Shown here: one piece after another, positions 1-14,156 of the stretch | How the letters are laid out: each line of letters opens with the position of its first letter | Numbering within the stretch: position 1 is the first letter of the stretch | Assembly: GCF_025118155.1 (NCBI RefSeq) | Contig: NW_026251432.1 | Location: 1-64,000 of the forward strand | Direction of reading: 5' to 3' | Length of the DNA: 64,000 nt | Origin: Cokeromyces recurvatus | Lineage: Eukaryota; Mucoromycota; Mucoromycetes; Mucorales; Mucoraceae | Translations under genes and position numbers: made by a program | The notes under the pieces: generated by a model | Databases searched by the model: none | The model's input: only the letters and a program-made list of their open reading frames with translations | Told to the model about the DNA's origin: nothing

Positions 1-3000
1 CAAGCACGAATCAAAACCTTATCGGTGGACGCCAGGAAGTCGGTGAACTGTACCTGACGATATCGACGTAGCCAAAAGGAGACAGGGTGACCACGAGAGC
101 CAAGAGAGTCAGGCATATCACGAGCCAGGGGACGACCACAAAGAGAAGAGAGGGTAGGTGAGGACAAAGAGGAGGAGAGGAGAGAAAGAAGACAGTCAGG
201 GGGTAGGCCTCGGGCACGAAGACAGAACTTTGCCACAAGAGTATCTGCTCGGAAACGCATTGACGGCAAATTGGTCAAATGACAAAAGACAGTTGTTGAG
301 GAGGTGCCATGGCCACCGAAGATCATTCGCAAGCAACGATTTTGGACCTTCTCCAATGCTGTGTAGTCAACACCACGAAGTTGGGAAATGGCGAGGCCAT
401 ATTCAAGTTTGGGTCTGACGGAGGAGGCGTACAGGCGAGAGGAGAACAAGAGGGAGAAGCCAGAACGATTTGCACCAAGTGCGTTCAACTGAGACATCTG
501 GAGCATAGTGCCAGGTTTGCGTTTAGTAACGATGGTAGGGGAGGAGATGCCTGCACGACGGAAGGGGACACCAAGGTATATAAACTCTTCGACGACAGGG
601 AGAGGCACACTATAGAGTGACAAGGTCACAGAGGTAGAGGAAGTGGCGGAAGGAGGATTGAGAACAGCACACTTTGGAGGTGACCACCTGTACCCAAGGG
701 AAGCAGAATGAGACTCCGAGAGTTGTAGCATTGTCTGGACTTCACGAGCAGAGCCAATGAGTGCCACATCATCGGCGTACAGCAGGCAGTTGACAGGAGT
801 GGGAGAAGGAACCGCTGGCATTGTGACGGGATACCAGGGAGGGACAATGGGGTCGGAAGGAGAGGAGGATAGGACAGAAGCAGTCCGAGGGGAAGCTGCA
901 GAACGCAGAAGAGGAGCAAGAGAGTTAATGTAAACCGAGTACAGGTGAGGACTGAGAACAGAACCTTGGAGAACACCTGTACAAGGGGAGAAAGGAAGAG
1001 ACACATTGTTGGACAACAAGACAGAGACTTCAACGTTATCGAACAAATTGACAAAAGAGAGACGAGAGAAAGTGGGCAGAAGACGCCAACAGAGAGTTCC
1101 ACACTACACGACGATCTACTGTGTCATAAGCAGCTTTTATGTCAAGAAAGCAACAACAGGTGATGGTGATGTTTGCGATAGTACTCCTTCATGAGTCATG
1201 TAAACAGAGGCCTGGTCAGAGCACTACGTTTGGACGGAATCCACCTTGGGCGACATCAAGGGAGGAGAGACAGAGACAACAAAAGAAGAGAGACACATCT
1301 CGAAGAGCTTTCTCATGATGAAGTGAGGGAGATTGGCCTGAAGTTAGCAGGATCGGTAACATACCCTTTTTGTGAATGGGGACAACATGGGCTTGTCGCC
1401 AAAGAGAAGGAGTGAGGCCCAACGAAAGCAAAGAGTGAACAGCTTCGAAAGAAGGCAAGACAAGGGACGACGAAGAGGGAGAAGCATCTCAGTACGCAGA
1501 TGGTCTGGACCAGGAGCTTTTCGCCGTGGCAACAACTTCAAGAGGATGCAACCGCTTGAGAGGAGATGGCGAGAGACAACCTTCAGGGACCACAAAGGGC
1601 AAAGAAGAGGTAGAAGAAGGAAGAGGAGGAGGGCGAGTGATGGGTAGACCAGACCCAGAGTACACAGAAGCTAAATGGTCACGCATGACTTGAGCACCAG
1701 CAGAAGGACCGTCTGGATGAACGAAGCCAGCAGAACGAGAACGGCGAGACTTCAACTGTTTCACCTTCTTCAGAGCAGTTGACATGTCAGAAGCTTCTAA
1801 CGCATTACAAAAGGCGCGCCAAGAGAGTTGCTTTGCTGTTCGAAGATCCTGCTTGAACTTTGCATGTGCTGCTATGTGTTGATTCCACCAAAAGACCTTG
1901 TCAAGACCAGAGGAATGACGCCACTTACGATAACATCGTTCACGAAGGTCTGCTGCTTTCTGTAGTGAAGGAGTCCAAAAGTGCTTCCAATGAGACGGAC
2001 GAGGAGTACGGGTGCCAACCGAAGAATCCAACGCCGAGTATATAGCTGCATTGAGGGAGCCATTAAGGCTATCAATGTTTGGACAGGACAGAGAAGGACT
2101 AGAGAGAAGAGAATCCAGTTCATCTGACAGAGGAGAAGACAGAGAGGAGAAACGGTCAATGTACAGATCCTTAACATCAGGTTCGGCCAGCCGAGACAAG
2201 TGCCAAAGACGACGAGGACAGGAAGAAGAAGCAGATGGAGGAGAGGAAGGAGTAGCCACAGGGACTGAGAGGTCAAAGGAGAGGGACATCAGTTTATGGT
2301 CAGAGCCAAGAGAGAGATCAGACCTGATAAGGAGGGAAGAAGAAGGACTGGTGGTGATGGAAGGGATATTGGTCAAGAAGTAGTCGACAATGCTGCTTAC
2401 TTGACGACCATGACGGAAGGAAAGGAAGGTAGGGACTCCATGGGAGAGAGAGGCATTCAGGATGGACAGAGAATGCTCTTCACACCATTGTTGCAAGAGG
2501 TTGCCGCGAGTGTTGGAAGTACCATCACCAGTGATGTCACCAAGACGAGCATTCAAGTCACCGCAAATGATAGTGTCAGTTGACAAAGGAAGGGAGTCAA
2601 AGACAGAGACAACTTCTTCAGAGGAGAGAGAAGGAGAGAGGTACAGCAAATGAGTTTAAGTGATGAACCCAATTGAAGGCCGAGAGCATAGAACTTTGCA
2701 CTGGTATTTGGAACACAGGCAGAGGACAAGAAGGAGAGACAAGGCAAGACACACCCATGGACCCACGAAAGTTGCCAGCAACAGGAGTACCATAAGGTGG
2801 TGTTGTTCCCAAGAGGTAGGTAGACGAGATGGAGGAAGCAGCCAGGTTTCAGTGATGAGGATGAGTGAGAAATCTGGCAGTGACGGAGGAGATCATCGAC
2901 CGAGGAAGCTTGGAGACCATTGGCATTCCAGAGGCCGATGTTGAGAGGAAGCAGAGGAGGAGAAGGAGAGACAGTAGAAGGAAAGGAAGGACGAGAAGGA

Positions 3001-3050
3001 GTGGATGAATCACTAGAGTGATTATTAAGAGGAGTGTGACCAGCACTCAT
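1..3050 (-). pseudogene. LINE-A ORF2 (endonuclease + reverse transcriptase), frameshifted, 3' end cut by window
   Basis: The ATG at 3050 overlaps the ORF1 stop (TAATG). The first residues include LNIGLWNANGLQ, the start of an APE-type endonuclease. The frame then breaks. A 386-aa stretch at 2649-1489 holds the rest of the endonuclease, with CGDLNARLGD and the late SDHKLMSLSF motif, followed by the linker into the reverse transcriptase. Below 1489 the RT is spread over several frames. Translating the minus strand near 750-800 gives CLLYADDVAL, the catalytic YADD box, and further down comes the family block with LEYGLAIS. The multiple frameshifts mean no functional ORF2. The shadow ORFs on both strands here are not genes. 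Confidence 0.8.
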
Positions 3051-3990
3051 TAATATTCATCTAACATTTCGGTGTCAGTGGGTGAAGAAGCAGGAGCAGC
3101 AGAAGATCTATCTACGTCATCCCAAGAGGCCAAAGGATTGCGAGGACCCAATGAGTGGAGGTCTTCCTCCGAGACCCAGCCAAGTTGAATGTACTCTCGG
3201 GCAACAGGACCAAAAAGGGGAGCACGATGCTTTGACAAGTACGCCAAAGAGAGAAGGAACGTTGATTCTGTAGGCGCAAGGCAACAGTGAAACGAGAGTC
3301 AGTGTCCATATCTTTGTATTTGGGGTCAGCAACATTGATGGGATCCAAAGGATCAAAGTCCTTTATAGTAGCAATCTTGGCTTTTGCAAGAAGACCTTCA
3401 AATGCTTCTTCGAAACCACGGTGGATCAAGAGACCGATTATATTACGGGCCGGGAAAGAGACATCAACGATGCGGCGAGGCTCGGCACCAAGAAGGCGAA
3501 GATTACGTCGGACTTCAGTCTTAGTAAAGCGACGGGAACGGTTGATATACACTGTTGTATATCCAGAGGGGCCAGAGACTTCATTGAACCCACGGACGAT
3601 GGCTTCACGGCGCTTTACTGTCACCTTCTTACCTGCAGGTGGCTTAGCGGGACCCTTGGTAGCCTTGGGGCGACGTGCAACAACAGTGCTCCACATGGAT
3701 GCTTCAGTACCTTGTTCAATAGAGGCAGCAGGTGTGGCGGCAGGGACGGCTGGGGTGGCGGCAGGAGCTCTAGCGGGAGTGGCAGCGGGTCTGGCGGGGG
3801 CTTCGGCCAGACGGGCACGGAGGGCAGCATTTTCTTGCTCAAGGGCCTTATTTTTGGTATTTAGGGCGGCAATAGTCTCCTCTAAGGCGGCAAATCGTTC
3901 CCAAAGCACTTCCTGCTGACTTACCTTTGCCGTGAGACTGGCAATTTGTTTCAAGATTGATGTTATGTCGACATTGTTGTAATTGCTCAT
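3050..3990 (-). pseudogene. LINE-A ORF1 protein, one frameshift
   Basis: The ORF starts at 3990 (MSNYNNVDITSILKQIASL). An N-terminal heptad-rich segment of about 60 aa (ALEETIAALNTKNKALEQ) suggests a coiled coil. An Ala/Pro-rich linker follows, then a basic domain of about 100 aa (TTVYINRSRRFTKTEVRRNL and IKDFDPLDP) shared with ORF1 of the neighbouring LINE, possibly an RNA-binding fold. The frame is lost near residue 245 (about 3250) and continues in another frame (3247 to 3050) to a TAA that overlaps the ORF2 ATG. The role as nucleic-acid chaperone is inferred from LINE ORF1 proteins in general. Confidence 0.7.
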
Positions 3991-4388
3991 TTCGCTAATG
4001 GGGGATTACGCAATTTCAAGCAATTAAAGATGATGGATGGCAAAATGTGGTCGGATTGAGCTGAAAAAAATACAGAAGATGCAGAAAAATTAAAGCGTTC
4101 AGAAAAAATAAAGATGAGAGTGATCCGATTACTAGATTTGGAAATATTACGTAAAAACTGGCAAAAAGAAAAAAAAAGTTCAGAAATGAATCGTCCAGAT
4201 GGAAGGGAAGATGTTGTCCGATCGGAATAAAAAAAAATTCAGTAGCTGTATCTATTGAAGGCCTTTTTAATGATACCAAAAATAGGAATGGATGACTTGT
4301 TGTTGTTGAGTTATTAGCTGTCAAAGTTCGACTTTTTATTAAACTGAGTTTGAAACCAAGTAGAAAAATAAATAGCGGAAAGAAAGGG

Positions 4389-4402
4389 GGGGATGTAGCT
4401 CA
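4389..4402 (+). repeat. 14-nt tRNA-Ala 5' fragment (target-site duplication)
   Basis: The sequence GGGGATGTAGCTCA is identical to nucleotides 1-14 of the intact tRNA-Ala at 11208-11280. It lies exactly between the 5' end of LINE-A and the 3' end of the next LINE. I interpret it as the left copy of the duplication made when the LINE at 4403-9327 inserted. Confidence 0.85.
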
Positions 4403-4691
4403 GGTTAAAGATTATATTTTATTTATAAGTAATTATATGGGCACTCTATAGAGCATTAGCCAAATTACATGAACAAATTATATATAAAAACAAACAATAT
4501 ATACAAAGGAAAAAGTATAAAAAACCCCTGAGAAAACGAACAAGGGGAAAAAAGAAGAAGGGAAAAGGGAAAAGAGAATCAACAGACTAATTTGTATACT
4601 TGATGATCTAAAGGTACAACCAACGGATGGGAACTTTGATACGCACTTACCATCGTGGAGACGCAATTAGAAAACAAAAAGAAACATTTCA

Positions 4692-7600
4692 TCAGCGACG
4701 AGAACAAGAAACAGACAACCATGAATCACCAGGATCGGGATCAGGAGCAATATGGGCTGACGGGTGACTTAGGGTATCAACCACGTACAGCAGAGAAAGT
4801 AAGGCCGACCAGAAAGGAGGAGGGCCAGAAGAAGCAGTAAGAGGGAGACAGTTAAGAGCATGATCAATCCGGTTGACACCAGGAGGAGAGACAGGCAACT
4901 GAGAGACCAAGGAGGAATCAACAGCACGACAGACCAAGATGTGATCACGGGTGAGCCTAGCACCAGAAGAACAAGGACACTCTTCATCCATGTTCGTAAA
5001 GCGACCGAGACGCCAGCGAACCAGTCGACTACGGGCAGTACGAGACATGGGGAGGTAGAGGATGGGATCCGGTTGCGACACAGAAGGACGACAAGCACGG
5101 AGGAGGACGAACTTACCAGAGGTGGAAGCAGCTGACATTTGACGATCAAACTGTTCTTGCCAATGGGAGTCAAAGAGAGCCTTGAGAGCGGAGGAGGATA
5201 CAGGCAGAGGATCTGGGAGCGAACGGTATAGCGAGTTCTCAGAGAGATACTTCACCAAGCGAGAGTAACGCAGGCTGTCTCGTAAGAGAACAACCAAGCA
5301 GTCATCCGCAAGAGACCGAGACCGAAGAACGTAGCGAGTCATCAGGACCTTATACCGGTGATGGAACGGAAGGATACAGGTAATGTGCTTAGCAACATTA
5401 ACCCAGGAGCTACCCAAGAACATACCAACCAACCTATTTTGCAACTTGTCAAAGGCTTTTACATCCGAAGATGTCAAACGAGAGATGGCCAGACCGTACT
5501 CAAGTTTGGGCCTAATGAAGCAAGTATACAGCCGCGAGGAAAGGAGAAGAGAGAAACCATTACGGTTGACACCGACCGAGTTAAGCAGAGCCATAGTTTT
5601 GACAGCACCAGAGGACCGCAAAGCCAGGATACCAGGACCATAAAGACCTTTACTACGGAACGGGACACCAAGATAGATAAACTCGTCAACAGTCGGAAGA
5701 GGCTCGCCATAAAGACGCAACCGAAAGTTGAACGAAGTAGAGGAGGTAACAGAAGGAGCATTAAGCACAGCACACTTGGAAGGATTCCAACGGTAGCCAA
5801 GAGAGAAAGAGTGAGAAGCAGCTAGATCCAACATCCTTTGCACTTCGTGCGACGAACCAAAGATAGCAACATCATCAGCAAACAGAAGGCAGTTGACCGG
5901 GAGTGGACTAGAGCGGGGCATACCAGGAGGACAAACCGAAGTAGTACTGGCAGAAGCAACAGACCGAAGGAGAGAAGGAAGGGAATTGATGTACAAAGAG
6001 TACAGATGGGGACTCAGCACGGAACCTTGGAGGACACCAGTGACTGGCCGAAAGAAGGGAGAGGAATGGTTAGAGATCAGCACCGAGACTTGGACATCAT
6101 CAAAGAGGTGAATCAGTAAACCTAGAATCGGGCGAGAGAGAGAAGAACGAGAGAGAGCATGCCATATAACACGTCTGTCGACAGTATCATAGGCAGCTTT
6201 GATATCCAGAAAGGCCACAACAGGGTAATGATGGTGAGAGAGAAAGTAGTCATGCATTAGGTCATGCAAGCAGAGGGCCTGGTCGAGAGGACTACGTTGA
6301 GGACGGAAACCACCCTGTGCGACGTCCAGAGGAGGAGACTGGGACAGGAGAACGGGAGCAAGACAGAACTCAAAGAGTTTGCGCATCACCGAGGTCAGAG
6401 AGATAGGACGGTAGTTGGACGGATCCAAGGGATCACCTTTCTTATGGATAGGGAACACCTGGGCTTGACGCCACACGGCAGGAGTGTAGCACCACTGATA
6501 ACAGATCTGGAACAAAGAAGACAACACCGGAGCCAGGTCCTTAGCCACGGCCTTCAGCATTTCTGCTTTCAGGTGATCGCGACCAGGTGCCTTACGGTTA
6601 GGTAGTTGCTTGATCAGCCTAAGTAGAGTAGGGACAGAAAAGATACCAAGATCAGAATCAGGGACCAAAGGAGAAGAGCCAGAAACGAACGGAGCCATAC
6701 CCGAGAAGTCAGGAGGAGCAGCCGGACGATCCGCAGAAGAGAGAAGAGAACCATCATACACCTTCGCCAGATGGGCAGCCATAGTGTTAACTGCTGACTG
6801 TGGACCATCAGGGTGGGTATATGAGGCAGAGACTAGTTTACGACGCTTGAGCCGAGCCATGGTAGCAGTAGCCTTGGAAAGTTCTTTTCAAGAGAAGCAC
6901 AAAAGTTCTTCCAAGAGAGACGCTTAGCAGCAGCAACAGAACGACGAAAGGAACGATGAGCATCTTGGTATAGGGTCCACCAGTAAGCTTTGTCAACTCC
7001 TACGGAGTGACGCCACATACGGTAACGCCTATCTCGCTCACGAGCAGCAGCCTCAAGATCAGCAGTCCAGTACTTATGCCAGTGACCAGGACGAGCAGCC
7101 TTTTGACCAATGGAGTCATCAAGAGCACGATAGAAACACTCGTTGAGGGAGTCATTGAGCGAGTCTATCGGCGGACGAACACCAGGAGGAGAAGAAACCA
7201 AGCCATCAAGGGTAACCTGTAAAGGAGCCACAAGAGACCGGAAACGAGATTGGTACAGGAGCAAGGGATCCACTTCATTCAACCGGGAAAGATTCCACAA
7301 TCGACGAGGGGCCAAGACACCAGAAGAAGGAGCAGAGTGGAGAGGAGGAATGTACCCAAAGGAAAGAAACATCAGACGATGATCAGAACCAAGGGACAAG
7401 TCAGACTCAACCACCAGAGAAGGAGAGACCATACCAGAGGCAGGAATGTTTGTGATGAACAGGTCAATAATGCTACTAACCTCTACATTACGCCGAAACG
7501 TTGTAAAGGTAGCAACACCATGAGCAAGTTCAGAGTTAAGGACCCGGAGGGAACGTTCTTCAAGCCAGGGCAAGAGAGACCGACCACGGGGATTGACCAC

Positions 7601-8121
7601 CAGATCACCTGTGAGAGCACCAAGACGAGCATTGAAGTCACCACAGAGAACGGTATCGGAGGAGAGAGGAAGAGAGTTAAGAACGGAGAACACCAGCTCA
7701 TTAGAGAGGCTGGGTGGAAGGTAGAGACAATGGACAGTGACTTTACCAATTTTCATGGACAAAGTATGGGCATTATAGGACGGAAGTTGATGGACAGGAA
7801 AGGGACAAGAAGGAGAGACAAGGCAACTGATACCTGCAGAACCACGACCATTAGCATTAGCAACGGGTTTACCATACAAGTGATGTTGAGACCAGTTTGT
7901 AGGCAGGAGACCAGAAGTAAGCCAGGTTTCAGTGACAAAGAGGACATCAGAGCAAAGAGAGTGGATAAGACATCATGGACGGTGGTGGCACGAAGACCAT
8001 TAGCATTCCATAACGCTATATTAAAGGAAAGGACTGGGTTAGTAGTAGCATCATTAATAATAAAAGAAGAAGGAACGGAAGGTGGGGGTATACTTAGATG
8101 AGGTGTCGATGATGGAGTCAT
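4692..8121 (-). pseudogene. LINE-B ORF2: APE endonuclease-reverse transcriptase, at least two frameshifts
   Basis: It starts at ATG 8121, overlapping the ORF1 stop (TAATG). The endonuclease N-terminus (SFNIALWNANGL) is separated by a frameshift from the main endonuclease ORF (7879-6833; CGDFNARLGA, SDHRLMFLSF). A one-base frameshift near 6870-6900 separates this from the 722-aa RT ORF (6860-4692). RT motifs in order are the conserved PSNYRPISLTSVMRKLFE block, AFLDIKAAYDTVDR, GVLQGSVLSPHLYSLYINSL and the catalytic LLFADDVAIF. The C-terminus has a zinc-knuckle-like CxC...HxxxxC (CPCSSGARLTRDHILVC). There is no RNase H. The activity would be target-primed reverse transcription in the nucleus. 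Confidence 0.85.
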
Positions 8122-9127
8122 TAAAGATCCATATCTTCAGCCTCGGAAGCAGAAGAGTCACCACTTTCTTCAGAAGAAGAGGGAACACCACGGAACATAA
8201 ACGTAGCCTTCTTGGGCTGACCTCAGCAAGACGACGACGAGCAGAACGAAGAGCACATTGAAGATCGTATTCATCGATCCACCCCTTCTCAACGAAGGAG
8301 CGACCGACAGCAGCAACAGAAACAGGACGAACAAAAGAAAGAGTGTTGATGGCACGCTTGTGTACCAGAGAGAAGATTTCTTGGGCACGGGAGGCCTCAG
8401 ACAGAGAATCATACTTGGGGTCGGCCAAGTGAGCGGGTCAAGAGGGTCAAAGTCCTTGATGACTTCGGCTTGCGCCTTAGTCATGATCTTGATAAAGTCT
8501 TGTACATACTGGGTATGTACGAGGACACCAAGAACACCAGAAGCAGGAAAAGAGATATCCAGAACGCGACCAGTATCCACACCAGCACGACGGAGACGAG
8601 AACGGACTTCAGAACGATCAATCTTCCTTGATCGTCCAGGTAAACATATTCAAACCTTGGGGCCTTGGGCCGCAGGGGACTTGAACGGGCGGGCGGCAGA
8701 GACACGCTTCTTCAGCGGGGACGGGCGGGCGGCCGCTGCAGCTTTGGCTGCGTAACTTACCTGAGGGGTTTTAACCCCATTTACGGCGGCAGGAGCAGAA
8801 CCAGAGGAAACAGAGAACAGAGAAGCAGAGGAGCAGGAGACTTACCAGAAGCAGAAACAAGTTAAGTTGAGAACTTTGACTGGAAATGGTCTTCTCCATT
8901 TCCTTAATTCTTGACATGAGTGCTTCATTTTGAGATTTTAACAATGCATTTTCTTTTTGCAATGCAAGGAGTTCAGAGATGACCGTAGAATGCTGTTCAA
9001 CTTTAGCAGAGAGGTTCAAAACAATCGTCTGAAGTTGTTCAGGGGTCAAGGGAACAGATGATGTTGGCAAATGTTGGACATTTGTCATTACATTGTTGAG
9101 AGATGTCGAAATGTTGGAATTGCTCAT
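8121..9127 (-). pseudogene. LINE-B ORF1 protein, frameshifted
   Basis: It starts at 9127 (MSNSNISTSLNNVMTNVQHL). About 100 residues of heptad-rich sequence (LLALQKENALLKSQNEALMS) look like a coiled coil. The frame breaks near 8850. An Ala/Pro-rich linker and a basic domain (SEVRSRLRRAGVDTGRVLDI and IKDFDPLDP) continue in other frames down to the TAATG junction with ORF2 at 8121. Its homology with LINE-A ORF1 is clear by eye. At least two frameshifts separate the parts. Confidence 0.65.
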
Positions 9128-9327
9128 TTCAAAAATGATCGTGCAAAACTAAACGAAATTGAAAAATGAAAACTGGAAACAGTATCTACTCTTCGAGACG
9201 AATTGAATGCTACTATTTTTATCGATGGATGACTGATAGTTGATGAGATATCGCTATGGATGTATTTGACGATTTTTTATTTTTTGCAAATTTTTTTTTA
9301 AAAAATAAAAAAAAATAAAAAAAAAAT

Positions 9328-9341
9328 GGGGATGTAGCTCA
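9328..9341 (+). repeat. 14-nt tRNA-Ala 5' fragment (target-site duplication)
   Basis: This is a second copy of GGGGATGTAGCTCA, between the 5' end of LINE-B copy 1 and the 3' end of the truncated copy. It matches 11208-11221 exactly. Together with the intact tRNA it brackets the youngest insertion. Confidence 0.88.
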
Positions 9342-11207
9342 GGTTAAAGATTATATTTTATTTATAAGTAATTATATGGGCACTCTATAGAGCATTAGCC
9401 AAATTACATGAGCAAATTATATATAAAAACAAACAATATATACAAAGGAAAAAGTATAAAAAACCCCTGAGAAAACGAACAAGGGGAAAAAAGAAGAAGG
9501 GAAAAGGGAAAAGAGAATCAACAGACTAATTTGTATACTTGATGATCTAAAGGTACAACCAACGGATGGGAACTTTGATACGCACTTACCATCGTGGAGA
9601 CGCAATTAGAAAACAAAAAGAAACATTTCATCAGCGACGAGAACAAGAAACAGACAACCATGAATCACCAGGATCGGGATCAGGAGCAATATGGGCTGAC
9701 GGGTGACTTAGGGTATCAACCACGTACAGCAGAGAAAGTAAGGCCGACCAGAAAGGAGGAGGGCCAGAAGAAGCAGTAAGAGGGAGACAGTTAAGAGCAT
9801 GATCAATCCGGTTGACACCAGGAGGAGAGACAGGCAACTGAGAGACCAAGGAGGAATCAACAGCACGACAGACCAAGATGTGATCACGGGTGAGCCTAGC
9901 ACCAGAAGAACAAGGACACTCTTCATCCATGTTCGTAAAGCGACCGAGACGCCAGCGAACCAGTCGACTACGGGCAGTACGAGACATGGGGAGGTAGAGG
10001 ATGGGATCCGGTTGCGACACAGAAGGACGACAAGCACGGAGGAGGACGAACTTACCAGAGGTGGAAGCAGCTGACATTTGACGATCAAACTGTTCTTGCC
10101 AATGGGAGTCAAAGAGAGCCTTGAGAGCGGAGGAGGATACAGGCAGAGGATCTGGGAGCGAACGGTATAGCGAGTTCTCAGAGAGATACTTCACCAAGCG
10201 AGAGTAACGCAGGCTGTCTCGTAAGAGAACAACCAAGCAGTCATCCGCAAGAGACCGAGACCGAAGAACGTAGCGAGTCATCAGGACCTTATACCGGTGA
10301 TGGAACGGAAGGATACAGGTAATGTGCTTAGCAACATTAACCCAGGAGCTACCCAAGAACATACCAACCAACCTATTTTGCAACTTGTCAAAGGCTTTTA
10401 CATCCGAAGATGTCAAACGAGAGATGGCCAGACCGTACTCAAGTTTGGGCCTAATGAAGCAAGTATACAGCCGCGAGGAAAGGAGAAGAGAGAAACCATT
10501 ACGGTTGACACCGACCGAGTTAAGCAGAGCCATAGTTTTGACAGCACCAGAGGACCGCAAAGCCAGGATACCAGGACCATAAAGACCTTTACTACGGAAC
10601 GGGACACCAAGATAGATAAACTCGTCAACAGTCGGAAGAGGCTCGCCATAAAGACGCAACCGAAAGTTGAACGAAGTAGAGGAGGTAACAGAAGGAGCAT
10701 TAAGCACAGCACACTTGGAAGGATTCCAACGGTAGCCAAGAGAGAAAGAGTGAGAAGCAGCTAGATCCAACATCCTTTGCACTTCGTGCGACGAACCAAA
10801 GATAGCAACATCATCAGCAAACAGAAGGCAGTTGACCGGGAGTGGACTAGAGCGGGGCATACCAGGAGGACAAACCGAAGTAGTACTGGCAGAAGCAACA
10901 GACCGAAGAAGAGAAGGGAGAGAGTTAATGTACAAAGAGTACAGATGAGGACTCAGCACGGAACCTTGGAGGACACCAGTGACTGGCCGAAAGAAAGGAG
11001 AGGAATGGTTAGAGATCAGCACCGAGACTTGGACATCATCAAAGAGGTGAATCAGTAAACCTAGAATCGGGCGAGAGAGAGAAGAACGAGAGAGAGCATG
11101 CCATATAACGCGTCTGTCGACAGTATCATAGGCAGCTTTGATATCCAGAAAGGCCACAACAGGGTAATGGTGATGAGAGAGAAAGTAGTCATGCATTAGG
11201 TCATGCA
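9342..11207 (-). mobile_element. LINE-B copy 2: 5'-truncated, nearly identical to copy 1
   Basis: This 1866-bp piece matches 4403-6268 with only scattered substitutions (for example at 9414 versus 4475 minus offset, and a few near 10905-10970). It shares the same 3' end and stops at the equivalent of 6268, inside the RT domain, directly against G1 of the tRNA-Ala gene. A 5' truncation with an intact 3' end is the usual product of incomplete target-primed reverse transcription. The open frame at 11196-9631 (521 codons) covers the RT palm through to the C-terminal zinc knuckle. Confidence 0.9.
9631..11207 (-). pseudogene. LINE-B copy 2 ORF2 C-terminal half (RT), 5'-truncated
   Basis: This is an open frame without a natural start. 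It begins just before AFLDIKAAYDTVDR, continues through LLFADDVAIF and the C-terminal CxC...HxxxxC knuckle, and ends at the same stop as copy 1. It lacks the endonuclease and the N-terminal RT fingers, so it cannot be active alone. Confidence 0.85.
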
Positions 11208-11280
11208 GGGGATGTAGCTCAAATGGTAGAGCGCTCGCTTAGCATGCGAGAGGCACTGGGATCGACGCCCAGCTTCTCCA
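11208..11280 (+). tRNA. tRNA-Ala (anticodon AGC)
   Basis: This 73-nt gene folds as a normal cloverleaf. The acceptor GGGGATG pairs with CTTCTCC, including the G3:U70 pair that is the main alanine identity element and one U-U mismatch at the sixth pair. The anticodon stem-loop reads CTCGC-TTAGCAT-GCGAG with anticodon AGC, and the discriminator base is A73. The internal A box is at about 11215-11226 and the B box near GGGATCGACGCCC. There is no intron. It is the target of the LINE insertions on its left, which all read in the opposite direction. Confidence 0.95.
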
Positions 11281-11301: not shown

Positions 11302-12895
11302 GTTCAATAATTATATTTTGATATTTATTCAAAATATATTGACATTTATTTTTATTTTTTATTTTTTTATTTTTAATAATGATATTTTTTGATATTCTTT
11401 TTTTTTTATTTAATAATAATATTCTTCTTTTTTTTTTCTTTTTATTTATTTGGAGTACAAGCTTAATTATTAGCTTTGTATAGTTAGACGATTATTATAT
11501 TAAGTTTACAATTAATTAGAATAATTAACGGTATTATTATTGAAAGCATCATATTTTAACATAGAAGAAACTCTAGATAATAACCTAAGTTTTATGTTAA
11601 AATATGATTAAAAAAAAAATAAAAAAAAAATAAATAAATAAACAAATAAAATGAATAAAACATCATGTCATGATTCTGTATATTATTATTATCACGTTGG
11701 ATGTATATTATTAAATTTATTACATCTAATTATCTAGGCAGGTCAGCAAGAAACATTATGTTCATTTTAAAATATTTGTTTAGTTTATATTCTTAATAAA
11801 AGATTTGTATTGTCTTAGATTAAATAATAATAATAAAATGAAGAGAGAAAATATTAAATATATCAGGAACTTATACTTCAAACTGAACAATAATAATTTC
11901 TTATTATTGTTATTACGAACTTGATACAAACTATTATATAATTATAGCATCCAATAGGTAGGTAGTTCGCAGATCAGTTATTCAAATCAATTAGACGTAC
12001 ACATTTAAATACCAATATTGTCTTCTAACAGTTTTTTTTTTTATCTTCTTTACATTAAATAAACATTCTTAAACAATATATATCTTTTTTTTTTAATTTC
12101 TAATATAATCTATACCACCACACATATCACTAAAATCTATCTTCTATTATTTCTATAATAACGTTTAGAAAAAAGAAGAAGGCTATTGATAATAATAATA
12201 ATAATAAAAATAATAAAAAAAAAAAAAAAACTTCCAAATGATAAAGTTCAAACTGTGATGGCATATTTTAAAAATTAAATAAAAAGAAGAAGAAGAAAAA
12301 AAGAGAAAGAGAAAGAAAACAAAAGGAAGTATAGTTTGAGACTGTTTATTCAAAGATAAAGATTATTTCTTATCTAGATGACTATTCGTATTTATACGAA
12401 TGAATCCTGAACCAAAAGAATAGAAATAACTATATATAAAAAAAAAAGGATAAATCATAAAACAGTGTTAGTATTCAGATATACATTGTGTTGATTCAAG
12501 CTACTGATTTATATGGATTATCTATTGCGTGTTATAATAATCTGATTAAGTTTTAGATAAAAAAAAAATAAATAATTGTATGATCCGAGTATATGTTCTT
12601 GATGTCTTATACATTTTTATTTTATTGGATCAAAGACGACCTCAATCCTTTATCAAAGTTATAAAAAATAAATATTTAGGAATGATACGATATCTTATTT
12701 AGTTGATACATTTAGATGATTGAATGTCATTAAGTTTTATGTTGTTTACATGATGTTATATACAGTCAGATATAATATCTTTTGTTATATATTCAGGCTT
12801 ATAGTTTATCCTGTAATATGTAATTTATCTTTTATAATATTATTTATGATTATATTCAGAGCTTGTTATATAACAGATATATCTAAACTGTAAAA
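11302..12895. other. AT-rich gene-free stretch
   Basis: There is no convincing coding sequence on either strand. It holds A/T homopolymers and short AAT/TTA repeats. It may contain decayed 5' parts of the Ty3 element that becomes recognisable at 12.9 kb, but I could not read any domain here. Confidence 0.5.
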
Positions 12896-13820
12896 TTAGC
12901 TTTGACAAAGGCAGTTGAAGGTGTACTGGACATGAATGAAATTTGTTTGCTCCCGGCGTACAGTTAGCTATGAATAATAAAGTAAAAAAAAAAAAAAAAA
13001 GATTGAATATGCCTCCATTTAATTTAATGTTTGACCATAAAAATGAATCCTTTTAAAGATTACAGTAAAGATAAAGATAAAAATAATAAAACCATAAGAT
13101 ATAGGCAATTAACAGATTGAATAGATCATATATCAGAAGTGGTATTTCCTCCTATAAAGGGTATAATTAACAAATATATAAATGACATGAAAGAAAAGTA
13201 CGTTAAATAAATAAAAAAAAACGTTATTAAAGATTTCAAACCTGGTACACAAGTAATAATCAAAATACCAACTCTAAAAGGATTCTTAACACCATGTTAC
13301 AAAGCTCCTACTCTGTTGTACGCAAAACAAGAGGTGGTTATTATGTACTTTAAGATATGAAACTAGATTTTAATATCCAGAAATTATTCAAGATTGTATT
13401 GACAATAATAATAAGAATGAAGACATATATGATATAGAAGGTATATTAGATCATAAGGGTACCTGTAAAAGACATAAAGTACAAAGTACAACGAACAGGT
13501 TATAGCAAGGATGAAGATTCTTGGGTTACCCCTAATCAAATCGTACATAAATTTACTATCAAAACATATTGGAGACGTAAATTATGGAAAGATTATAAAT
13601 TCTATAAAAAATAGTAGACATTTAAATTACACAGATACTATTAAGAAATTTTCATAAAATTGATAAGTCTATTAAAGCGCTACAAAACTATAATGAATAT
13701 TCGAAACAGGTACCTGAATTACAGCAAAAACAAAAGTTAAAGATCAATGATAAATCCTTAAAGGATACAACTATTAAAAGACGCAGTAAATGGTTATATA
13801 CAAGGAACAACAATAAATAA
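12896..13820 (+). pseudogene. Ty3/Gypsy integrase C-terminus with chromodomain, decayed
   Basis: Reading across frames on the plus strand gives, in order: a block resembling the end of the integrase core (LNMPPFNLMF, 13003-13033); the GPY/F-type module (DFKPGTQVIIKIPTLKGF, APYSVVRKTRGGYYVL) at about 13235-13355; a chromodomain (GILDHKG, then VQRTGYSKDEDSWVTPNQIV) at about 13430-13550; and a basic tail to TAA at 13820. Stops and frameshifts occur throughout. A purine-rich AGTAGAGGGTAAAG at 13841-13854 could be the polypurine tract. Chromodomain integrases belong to chromoviruses of the Ty3 group and are thought to direct insertion to particular chromatin. Confidence 0.75.
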
Positions 13821-14156
13821 TTGAACGGTTATCTCAACCTAGTAGAGGGTAAAGTTTTGATTGTACATAACATATACAAATATATTTTTTTTCCTAATTA
13901 AACTACTCTCACTTACGCCTATGTCTCCGGATTTATTTTTTTCTTGATATTTTAAACTATATAAAATACAATATATAGCTTATTTTGATCATTACTTTAA
14001 TGTACTGTAGTCATATATTACATATAATTTCTATTACCTACATTTTAACTGTTATATTACATATCTAAGCATAATTAATTGTATTATACACCATATAATA
14101 TTTGGTGCTGGCAATAATAAACTTGCATCGTCTTTTTTCTATCATTCATAATATTA

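Follow-up and report, generated by a model that had tools for sequence, protein, structure and literature searches.

How does a transfer RNA (tRNA) gene come to stand at the end of a row of retrotransposons that are separated by fragments of the same gene? This question is raised by a stretch of DNA from Cokeromyces recurvatus, a mould of the Mucoraceae (Mucoromycota), the first 64 kb (hereafter the window) of contig C41 (180,010 bp) in a genome assembly of 28,050,255 bp and 64 contigs. Near its left end lie three long interspersed nuclear elements (LINEs), followed by an intact tRNA-Ala gene with anticodon AGC. Our analysis indicates that such LINEs, which are L1-like and carry an endonuclease of the apurinic/apyrimidinic type (APE), very probably insert by target-primed reverse transcription between nucleotides 14 and 15 of tRNA-Ala(AGC), a preferred site.

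The tRNA-Ala(AGC) gene at 11208-11280 on the + strand is the single tRNA that ARAGORN finds in the window. Its first 14 nucleotides, GGGGATGTAGCTCA, are present at 11208-11221, where the gene begins, and recur exactly as orphan pieces at 4389-4402 and 9328-9341. A search of the entire genome, whose counts (like those of all genome searches used here) are lower bounds, yields six matches, whereas the reversed control yields none and base composition predicts 0.045; recurrence by chance was therefore rejected. The six sites are the starts of three intact tRNA-Ala(AGC) genes (on C41, C2 and C56), which are identical over 73 nucleotides, and three orphan pieces, two in the window and one at C2:159, each immediately adjoining the 3′ terminus of a LINE in antisense orientation. 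The gene on C56 is an empty site, with neither a 14-mer nor a LINE within the 350 upstream bases that were read. When an 18-base segment of the anticodon arm was searched with up to two mismatches, ten matches were returned: the three tRNA-Ala(AGC) genes at zero mismatches and seven others at two. Two of these seven were fetched (C26 and C4) and are tRNA-Ala(TGC) genes with a different 5′ sequence.

The reverse transcriptase (RT) and endonuclease frames of the LINEs in the window lie on the − strand, antisense to the tRNA gene (Table 1). A sequence-only reading of this DNA had noticed the two orphan pieces at LINE boundaries, the start of the intact gene (11208) exactly where the third LINE ends, and the common antisense orientation of all three LINEs, and each of these observations holds. 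The range it gave for the array, 4389-11280, leaves out LINE-A (1-4388), the left member.

Table 1. Features of the window array (C41) and of the second array on contig C2
Feature	Position	Strand	Basis or remark
LINE-A, left array member	C41:1-4388	−	5′ end 4388, adjoins 14-mer; 3′ end beyond contig start; frames broken
LINE-A RT match	C41:45-1544	−	contains stops
LINE-A endonuclease domain	within C41:1489-2649	−	domain match
Orphan copy of tRNA-Ala nucleotides 1-14 (target-site duplication)	C41:4389-4402	+	exact match
LINE-B copy 1	C41:4403-9327	−	3′ end 4403, 5′ end 9327; endonuclease and RT domains
LINE-B copy 1 RT frame, 722 amino acids	C41:4692-6860	−	Pfam RVT_1, 2e-24
LINE-B copy 1 5′-terminal stretch, also directly upstream of C19 tRNA-Thr gene	C41:9257-9327	−	sequence match
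Orphan copy of tRNA-Ala nucleotides 1-14 (target-site duplication)	C41:9328-9341	+	exact match
LINE-B copy 2, 5′-truncated	C41:9342-11207	−	comparison with copy 1
Intact tRNA-Ala(AGC) gene	C41:11208-11280	+	ARAGORN; comparison with C2 and C56 genes
A box (presumed), tRNA nucleotides 8-18; contains insertion point 11221/11222	C41:11215-11225	+	sequence against consensus
Leftmost C2 LINE, 5′ end	C2, to 158		sequence
Orphan 14-mer	C2:159-172		exact match
LINE-C, intact open reading frames	C2:173-5419		adjoins 14-mer and tRNA
Intact tRNA-Ala gene	C2:5420-5492		identical to C41 and C56 genes

Together with the empty site on C56, the second array on C2 reinforces what the sequence-only reading had proposed and what is still the best reading, namely repeated insertion after nucleotide 14 within the A box. 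Full-length and truncated LINE copies alike meet tRNA-Ala exactly at nucleotide 1, and this is precisely where LINE-B copy 2 is cut off. At least five insertions have occurred at one nucleotide of two tRNA-Ala genes, and these LINEs are thus site-specific in the sense that separate insertions fall on a single nucleotide of a gene. Both junctions are observed for LINE-B copy 1, LINE-B copy 2 and LINE-C, and the 5′ junction only for LINE-A and the leftmost C2 LINE.

The 14 nucleotides are a target-site duplication. Inside the arrays, an identical sequence would result if they were instead the 3′ end of the LINE, inserted bluntly before tRNA nucleotide 1 without any duplication. Copies elsewhere in the genome separate the two explanations. 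LINE-C-type 3′ termini at five other places (C42, C7, C12, C34 and C6) start with the identical LINE base after different preceding sequences that lack the 14-mer. Four of these copies are flanked by duplications of other sequences, which are exact over 14 bp on C7 and on C6, span 13 bp with one mismatch on C42 and measure 11 bp on C34; each was matched by 0 of 300 shuffles. These copies refute, for LINE-C, the assignment of the 14-mer to the element; no off-target 3′ terminus of LINE-B was found. Blunt insertion is therefore scarcely credible, and the idea, also raised in the sequence-only reading, that the 14-nucleotide pieces belong to the LINE can be discarded. Because the off-target copies carry other duplications, the stagger of ~14 bp is a property of the enzyme and not of the tRNA. 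All five off-target copies are 5′-truncated and short (~190-530 bp). Duplications of 11-14 bp at four of five such copies, and the truncation of LINE-B copy 2, are the marks of target-primed insertion.

The two open reading frames (ORFs) of LINE-C are uninterrupted; ORF1 encodes 314 amino acids when counted from the first in-frame ATG, and ORF2 encodes 1192 amino acids with APE-type endonuclease and RT domains. LINE-C ORF2 matches three Pfam families at E values up to 1; Exo_endo_phos_2 and RVT_1 are among them, whereas a restriction-like domain is absent. No Pfam family scores above its cut-off with ORF1. The two ORFs overlap as a TAATG stop-start in LINE-C (locus L010, 4060-4110), in LINE-A (window 3031-3080) and in LINE-B (window 8101-8145, − strand), an arrangement similar to the UAAUG coupling of SART1. 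A profile (A1) was built from 22 ORF2 proteins and searched against solved structures, among which there are few LINEs. Its best match is human L1 ORF2p (7e-35, endonuclease and RT), followed by the R2 RT and then by the endonuclease of TRAS1, a member of the R1 clade (weak, 6.5e-5). Judged by these protein comparisons, the array elements are APE-type, L1-like LINEs whose endonuclease and RT resemble L1 ORF2p most closely.

We propose that the endonuclease would first nick the tRNA-sense strand after A14, a position within the A box of the RNA polymerase III (Pol III) promoter, which we take to be tRNA nucleotides 8-18 by the consensus TRGYNNANNNG. A first nick on this strand would place the LINE antisense to the gene. 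The second cut, on the other strand, would fall at the first nucleotide of the gene, and repair would then duplicate nucleotides 1-14 and reconstitute a complete tRNA gene at the 5′ end of the LINE, available for the next insertion. Serial re-use of the site would generate arrays of 14-mer plus LINE in which the youngest copy adjoins the gene. Since the duplication is exactly tRNA nucleotides 1-14, each insertion should rebuild the gene, which presumably continues to function. Such rebuilding, an addition to the sequence-only reading, would explain the arrays, their orientation, the exact junction at nucleotide 1 whether a copy is full or truncated, and the presence of LINEs at two of the three tRNA-Ala(AGC) genes found. 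The usual argument for targeting a multicopy gene is that some copies are spared. Occupation of two genes out of three is plausible here only because the gene would be rebuilt each time.

Decay of the elements follows the pattern that would be predicted from successive entry next to the intact gene. It increases with distance from the tRNA, from the remaining part of LINE-B copy 2 through LINE-B copy 1 to LINE-A. When compared with the LINE-C proteins, the remaining part of copy 2 has neither stops nor frame changes, copy 1 has frame changes and no stops in the matched pieces, and ORF2 of LINE-A has six stops along with frame changes. On the other side of the insertion point, the orphan piece and the first bases of LINE-C together read TAGCTCAGGCG (L010, 166-176). 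This fits the presumed A-box consensus, and the broken A box is therefore restored in sequence. The orphan piece joined to the first bases of LINE-B reads TAGCTCAGGTT, a misfit to the same consensus.

Several observations weigh against serial insertion at a preferred site. Both arrays begin at contig starts, such that their observed lengths are only a minimum, and neither LINE-A nor the leftmost C2 LINE has its 3′ end in view. Only one of six LINE-C-type 3′ termini is at tRNA-Ala, with the other five outside tRNA genes, and the off-target copy on C12 lacks a detectable duplication (154 of 300 shuffles were equally good). An old, rearranged copy on C56 (L063) includes a LINE 5′ end, 5 nucleotides short by alignment, in a locus without a tRNA. 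Finally, the sequences downstream of the tRNA on C2 and C41 are similar, with 75-76% identity adjoining the tRNA and 94% over ~1.9 kb farther on. Therefore, the two arrays stand on related segments rather than in unrelated places.

This last observation suggests that the arrays might be duplicates of one insertion that was copied by tandem or segmental duplication, an idea also favored by the 99.4% identity of LINE-B copies 1 and 2 (11 of 1866 bases differ). However, copy 1 of LINE-B is full length, whereas copy 2 is truncated at precisely tRNA nucleotide 1. Furthermore, LINE-A, LINE-B and LINE-C represent different lineages: A and C are ~69% identical, and B is on another branch of the tree described below. 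It is very unlikely that one old insertion was copied along with its segment, because LINE-A and LINE-C are this divergent, pair with sequences of other species, and differ in condition, with ORFs intact only in LINE-C and broken in LINE-A.

The part with 94% identity is made up of positions 12213-14110 of the window and C2:7098-8993, and inside this part of the window lies a repeat of ~600 bp that is found in at least 36 other genomic places at ~80% identity. A hairpin-like stretch on C2 was noticed by eye only. A search for TTAGGG repeats, which might have placed the arrays at telomeres, gave 0 matches.

The 3′ termini were counted according to whether they lie at tRNA-Ala. Excluded from these counts are pieces without a 3′ terminus (LINE-B on C15 and C1, LINE-C-type on C3) and weak LINE-C-like pieces (C1:516918, C1:517116, C23:520288 and C23:522433). 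Both LINE-B 3′ termini (2/2) are at tRNA-Ala, preceded by the 14 nucleotides that the sequence-only reading had suggested looking for. Its concern that copies might be flanked by unrelated sequence does not apply to these termini, but it does apply to the short, 5′-truncated LINE-C-type copies. Two LINE-B pieces without a 3′ terminus (L012, 4752-5209, on C1 and L045, 1501-2025, on C15) are ~92% identical and have unrelated surroundings.

Among 5′ ends, those of LINE-A, LINE-B copy 1, LINE-C and the LINE at C2:158 meet a 14-mer or the tRNA gene. LINE-A, LINE-C and the LINE at C2:158 share a 17-base 5′-end motif that LINE-B lacks. At up to two mismatches this motif has 46 matches, versus 57 in the reversed control, and only the four with zero or one mismatch were weighed. 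Three of these belong to 5′ ends within the arrays; for the fourth, on C12, the 301 bases inspected contain no 14-mer.

Since the off-target copies carry other duplications, targeting is leaky; the tRNA-Ala site is strongly preferred, but not exclusive. The off-target site on C34 matches the tRNA site at 13 of 26 positions (p 0.003), and around the nick C34 and C42 each match at 6 of 10 (p 0.017 each). Those on C7 and C6 show no resemblance (p 0.41-0.84); these p values are uncorrected for four sites and three spans. If there were no targeting at all, LINEs would insert anywhere and long elements would survive only at this harmless site, a scenario with which the short off-target copies and their duplications agree. 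However, uniform insertion into 28 Mb could not bring five or more insertions to the same nucleotide of two genes, and survival might enrich for tRNA flanks but not for a single base. We consider the absence of targeting to be extremely improbable. For the other LINE groups of this genome, 28 printed 3′ ends from groups D-H adjoin varied sequence, with boundaries that are the ends of BLAST matches. ARAGORN returned no tRNA from 28 LINE loci, which reach ~1.5 kb past the RT match; the LINE-C locus of the array also gave 0, and this result was not used as a control. The 28 3′ ends of groups D-H and the 14-mer search of the entire genome take its place.

A second tRNA species may also have been involved. 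The 5′-terminal 71 nucleotides of LINE-B copy 1 resemble a stretch that immediately precedes a tRNA-Thr gene on C19 (L049, 1426-1555, beside an inverted repeat). A 28-base core of this stretch matches perfectly at C19, and no other place matches it even with up to three mismatches. Both stretches end in AAAAAT before tRNA nucleotide 1, if nucleotide 1 of tRNA-Thr is set one base inside the ARAGORN start according to our reading of the acceptor stem. Two other tRNA-Thr genes were examined, of eight matching 14-mers, and neither has a LINE-B-like stretch upstream. From this resemblance, either a LINE-B with identical geometry once occupied the C19 gene, or the 5′ end of LINE-B copy 1 was acquired there.

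This locus bears on whether the LINE endonuclease reads the target sequence. The same outcome and the same duplication would arise if Pol III factors brought the LINEs to tRNA genes, as proposed for TRE5 of Dictyostelium. The proximity of the LINE-B-like 5′ end to tRNA-Thr would be consistent with such a tether, as would the fact that the four reconstructed off-target sites differ, with one alone clearly resembling the tRNA site. Likewise, TRE5 ORF1 interacts with TFIIIB, as stated in an excerpt of the report (PMC5911963). However, the same excerpt places TRE5 insertions 40-54 bp upstream of tRNA genes, whereas the junctions described here fall at one nucleotide of one tRNA species. We therefore judge tethering to be rather unlikely, and it seems more fitting that the LINE endonuclease would recognize the sequence of the site.

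Relatives of the array elements were sought by a protein search in which 8,000 candidates were scored and 1,385 passed. The best 120 of these 1,385 include sequences from Mucor, Parasitella, Rhizopus and Umbelopsis. No relatives were found in viral contigs, and among prokaryote genome contigs there was only one 26% match, in a contig of a cyanobacterial metagenome-assembled genome. A tree of 70 rows was constructed, from which CRH_L035 and P0105 were dropped as too short and in which the LINE-A row is partial. LINE-B falls among sequences of Mucor and Parasitella; LINE-A and LINE-C cluster with a sequence of Rhizopus delemar and others. Five of the six LINE groups D-I could be placed, all across a 97/96 branch from LINE-A, LINE-B and LINE-C; group H was too short.

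That the LINE-B and LINE-A/C branches have the same target suggests an old specificity. It is conceivable, although we put the chance somewhat below even, that a whole branch of APE LINEs in Mucoromycotina, to which the relatives from Mucor, Parasitella, Rhizopus and Umbelopsis belong, specifically targets the tRNA A box, chiefly nucleotides 14/15 of tRNA-Ala, and that this self-healing site predates the split of the genera. There are hints in this direction from two pairs of relatives and from the LINE-B-like 5′ end that is flush with tRNA-Thr. P0025 and P0043, from Mucor saturninus, have consecutive gene numbers and equally long contigs; they seemingly share one contig and may form an array. 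P0013 and P0018 are also on equally long contigs and may be an array in another fungus.

LINEs that target one nucleotide serve as model systems in which to study target-primed reverse transcription and insertion into safe sites. The Cokeromyces elements unite an APE endonuclease with a target within a tRNA gene and with a duplication by which this gene is exactly rebuilt, and the off-target copies with readable duplications provide material on how specificity arises and leaks. No APE LINE inside a tRNA gene and no tRNA-specific fungal LINE is announced in the titles and abstract beginnings listed by our searches of the open-access literature, a scope that excludes Repbase reports and subscription papers. 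Elements related to NeSL carry a restriction-like endonuclease, and the zebrafish element Dewa is of the L1/Tx1 type with an APE.

The published systems are compared here by excerpts of the papers cited. The sequence-only reading had listed known kinds of site-specific LINEs, and its tRNA-associated precedents in dictyostelids stand. The list was incomplete, as the NeSL relatives NeSL-1_TV (tRNA-Pro), LIN15_SM (tRNA-Arg) and LIN25_SM (tRNA-Glu), each of which targets a single type of tRNA gene, had already been published (PMC4640811). The Cokeromyces LINEs likewise show a strong preference for a single type, but have an APE-type endonuclease instead. The dictyostelid elements TRE5, TRE3 and NLTR, of which the TREs are classed as L1-type, are also non-long-terminal-repeat (non-LTR) retrotransposons linked to tRNA genes. 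They are located near many such genes, 40-54 bp upstream, 40-150 bp downstream or, for one element, ~4 bp upstream (PMC5006619, PMC5911963), whereas the Cokeromyces junctions are tRNA nucleotides 1 and 14. Dewa is a target-specific non-LTR element at a tRNA-Leu locus, but its target is the spacer and not the gene (PMC3706591).

Dada elements are described as inserting at defined positions within tRNA genes, including tRNA-Ala, and some Perkinsus Dada families use TAGCTC, part of the same tRNA stretch (PMC3706591, PMC8869645). Dada elements are DNA transposons with a DDE transposase and use a different position in tRNA-Ala, whereas the Cokeromyces elements are LINEs. Grem-LINE1, from pericentric regions of Mucor, is an L1-like LINE of Mucorales with two ORFs, as in Cokeromyces (PMC7377519). 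It differs, by a comparison of descriptions only, in its pericentric location and its zf-RVT domain; this domain (PF13966) is not among the three Pfam families matched by LINE-C ORF2 at E values up to 1.

Closest in behavior is R1 of Drosophila, for which 14-bp target duplications are reported in full-length and 5′-truncated copies, along with arrays at the target whose members are separated by the 14-bp piece, and off-target copies whose sites share 4-9 bp with the target and whose duplications measure 3-14 bp (PMC2718515). Duplications of 14 bp, arrays and off-target copies are common to both systems, a likeness of behavior rather than a sign of kinship. The R1 target is the insect 28S ribosomal RNA gene and each insertion interrupts a unit, whereas at tRNA-Ala the gene stays whole. 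If the wider specificity considered above is real, the Mucoromycotina branch would represent a fungal counterpart of R1.

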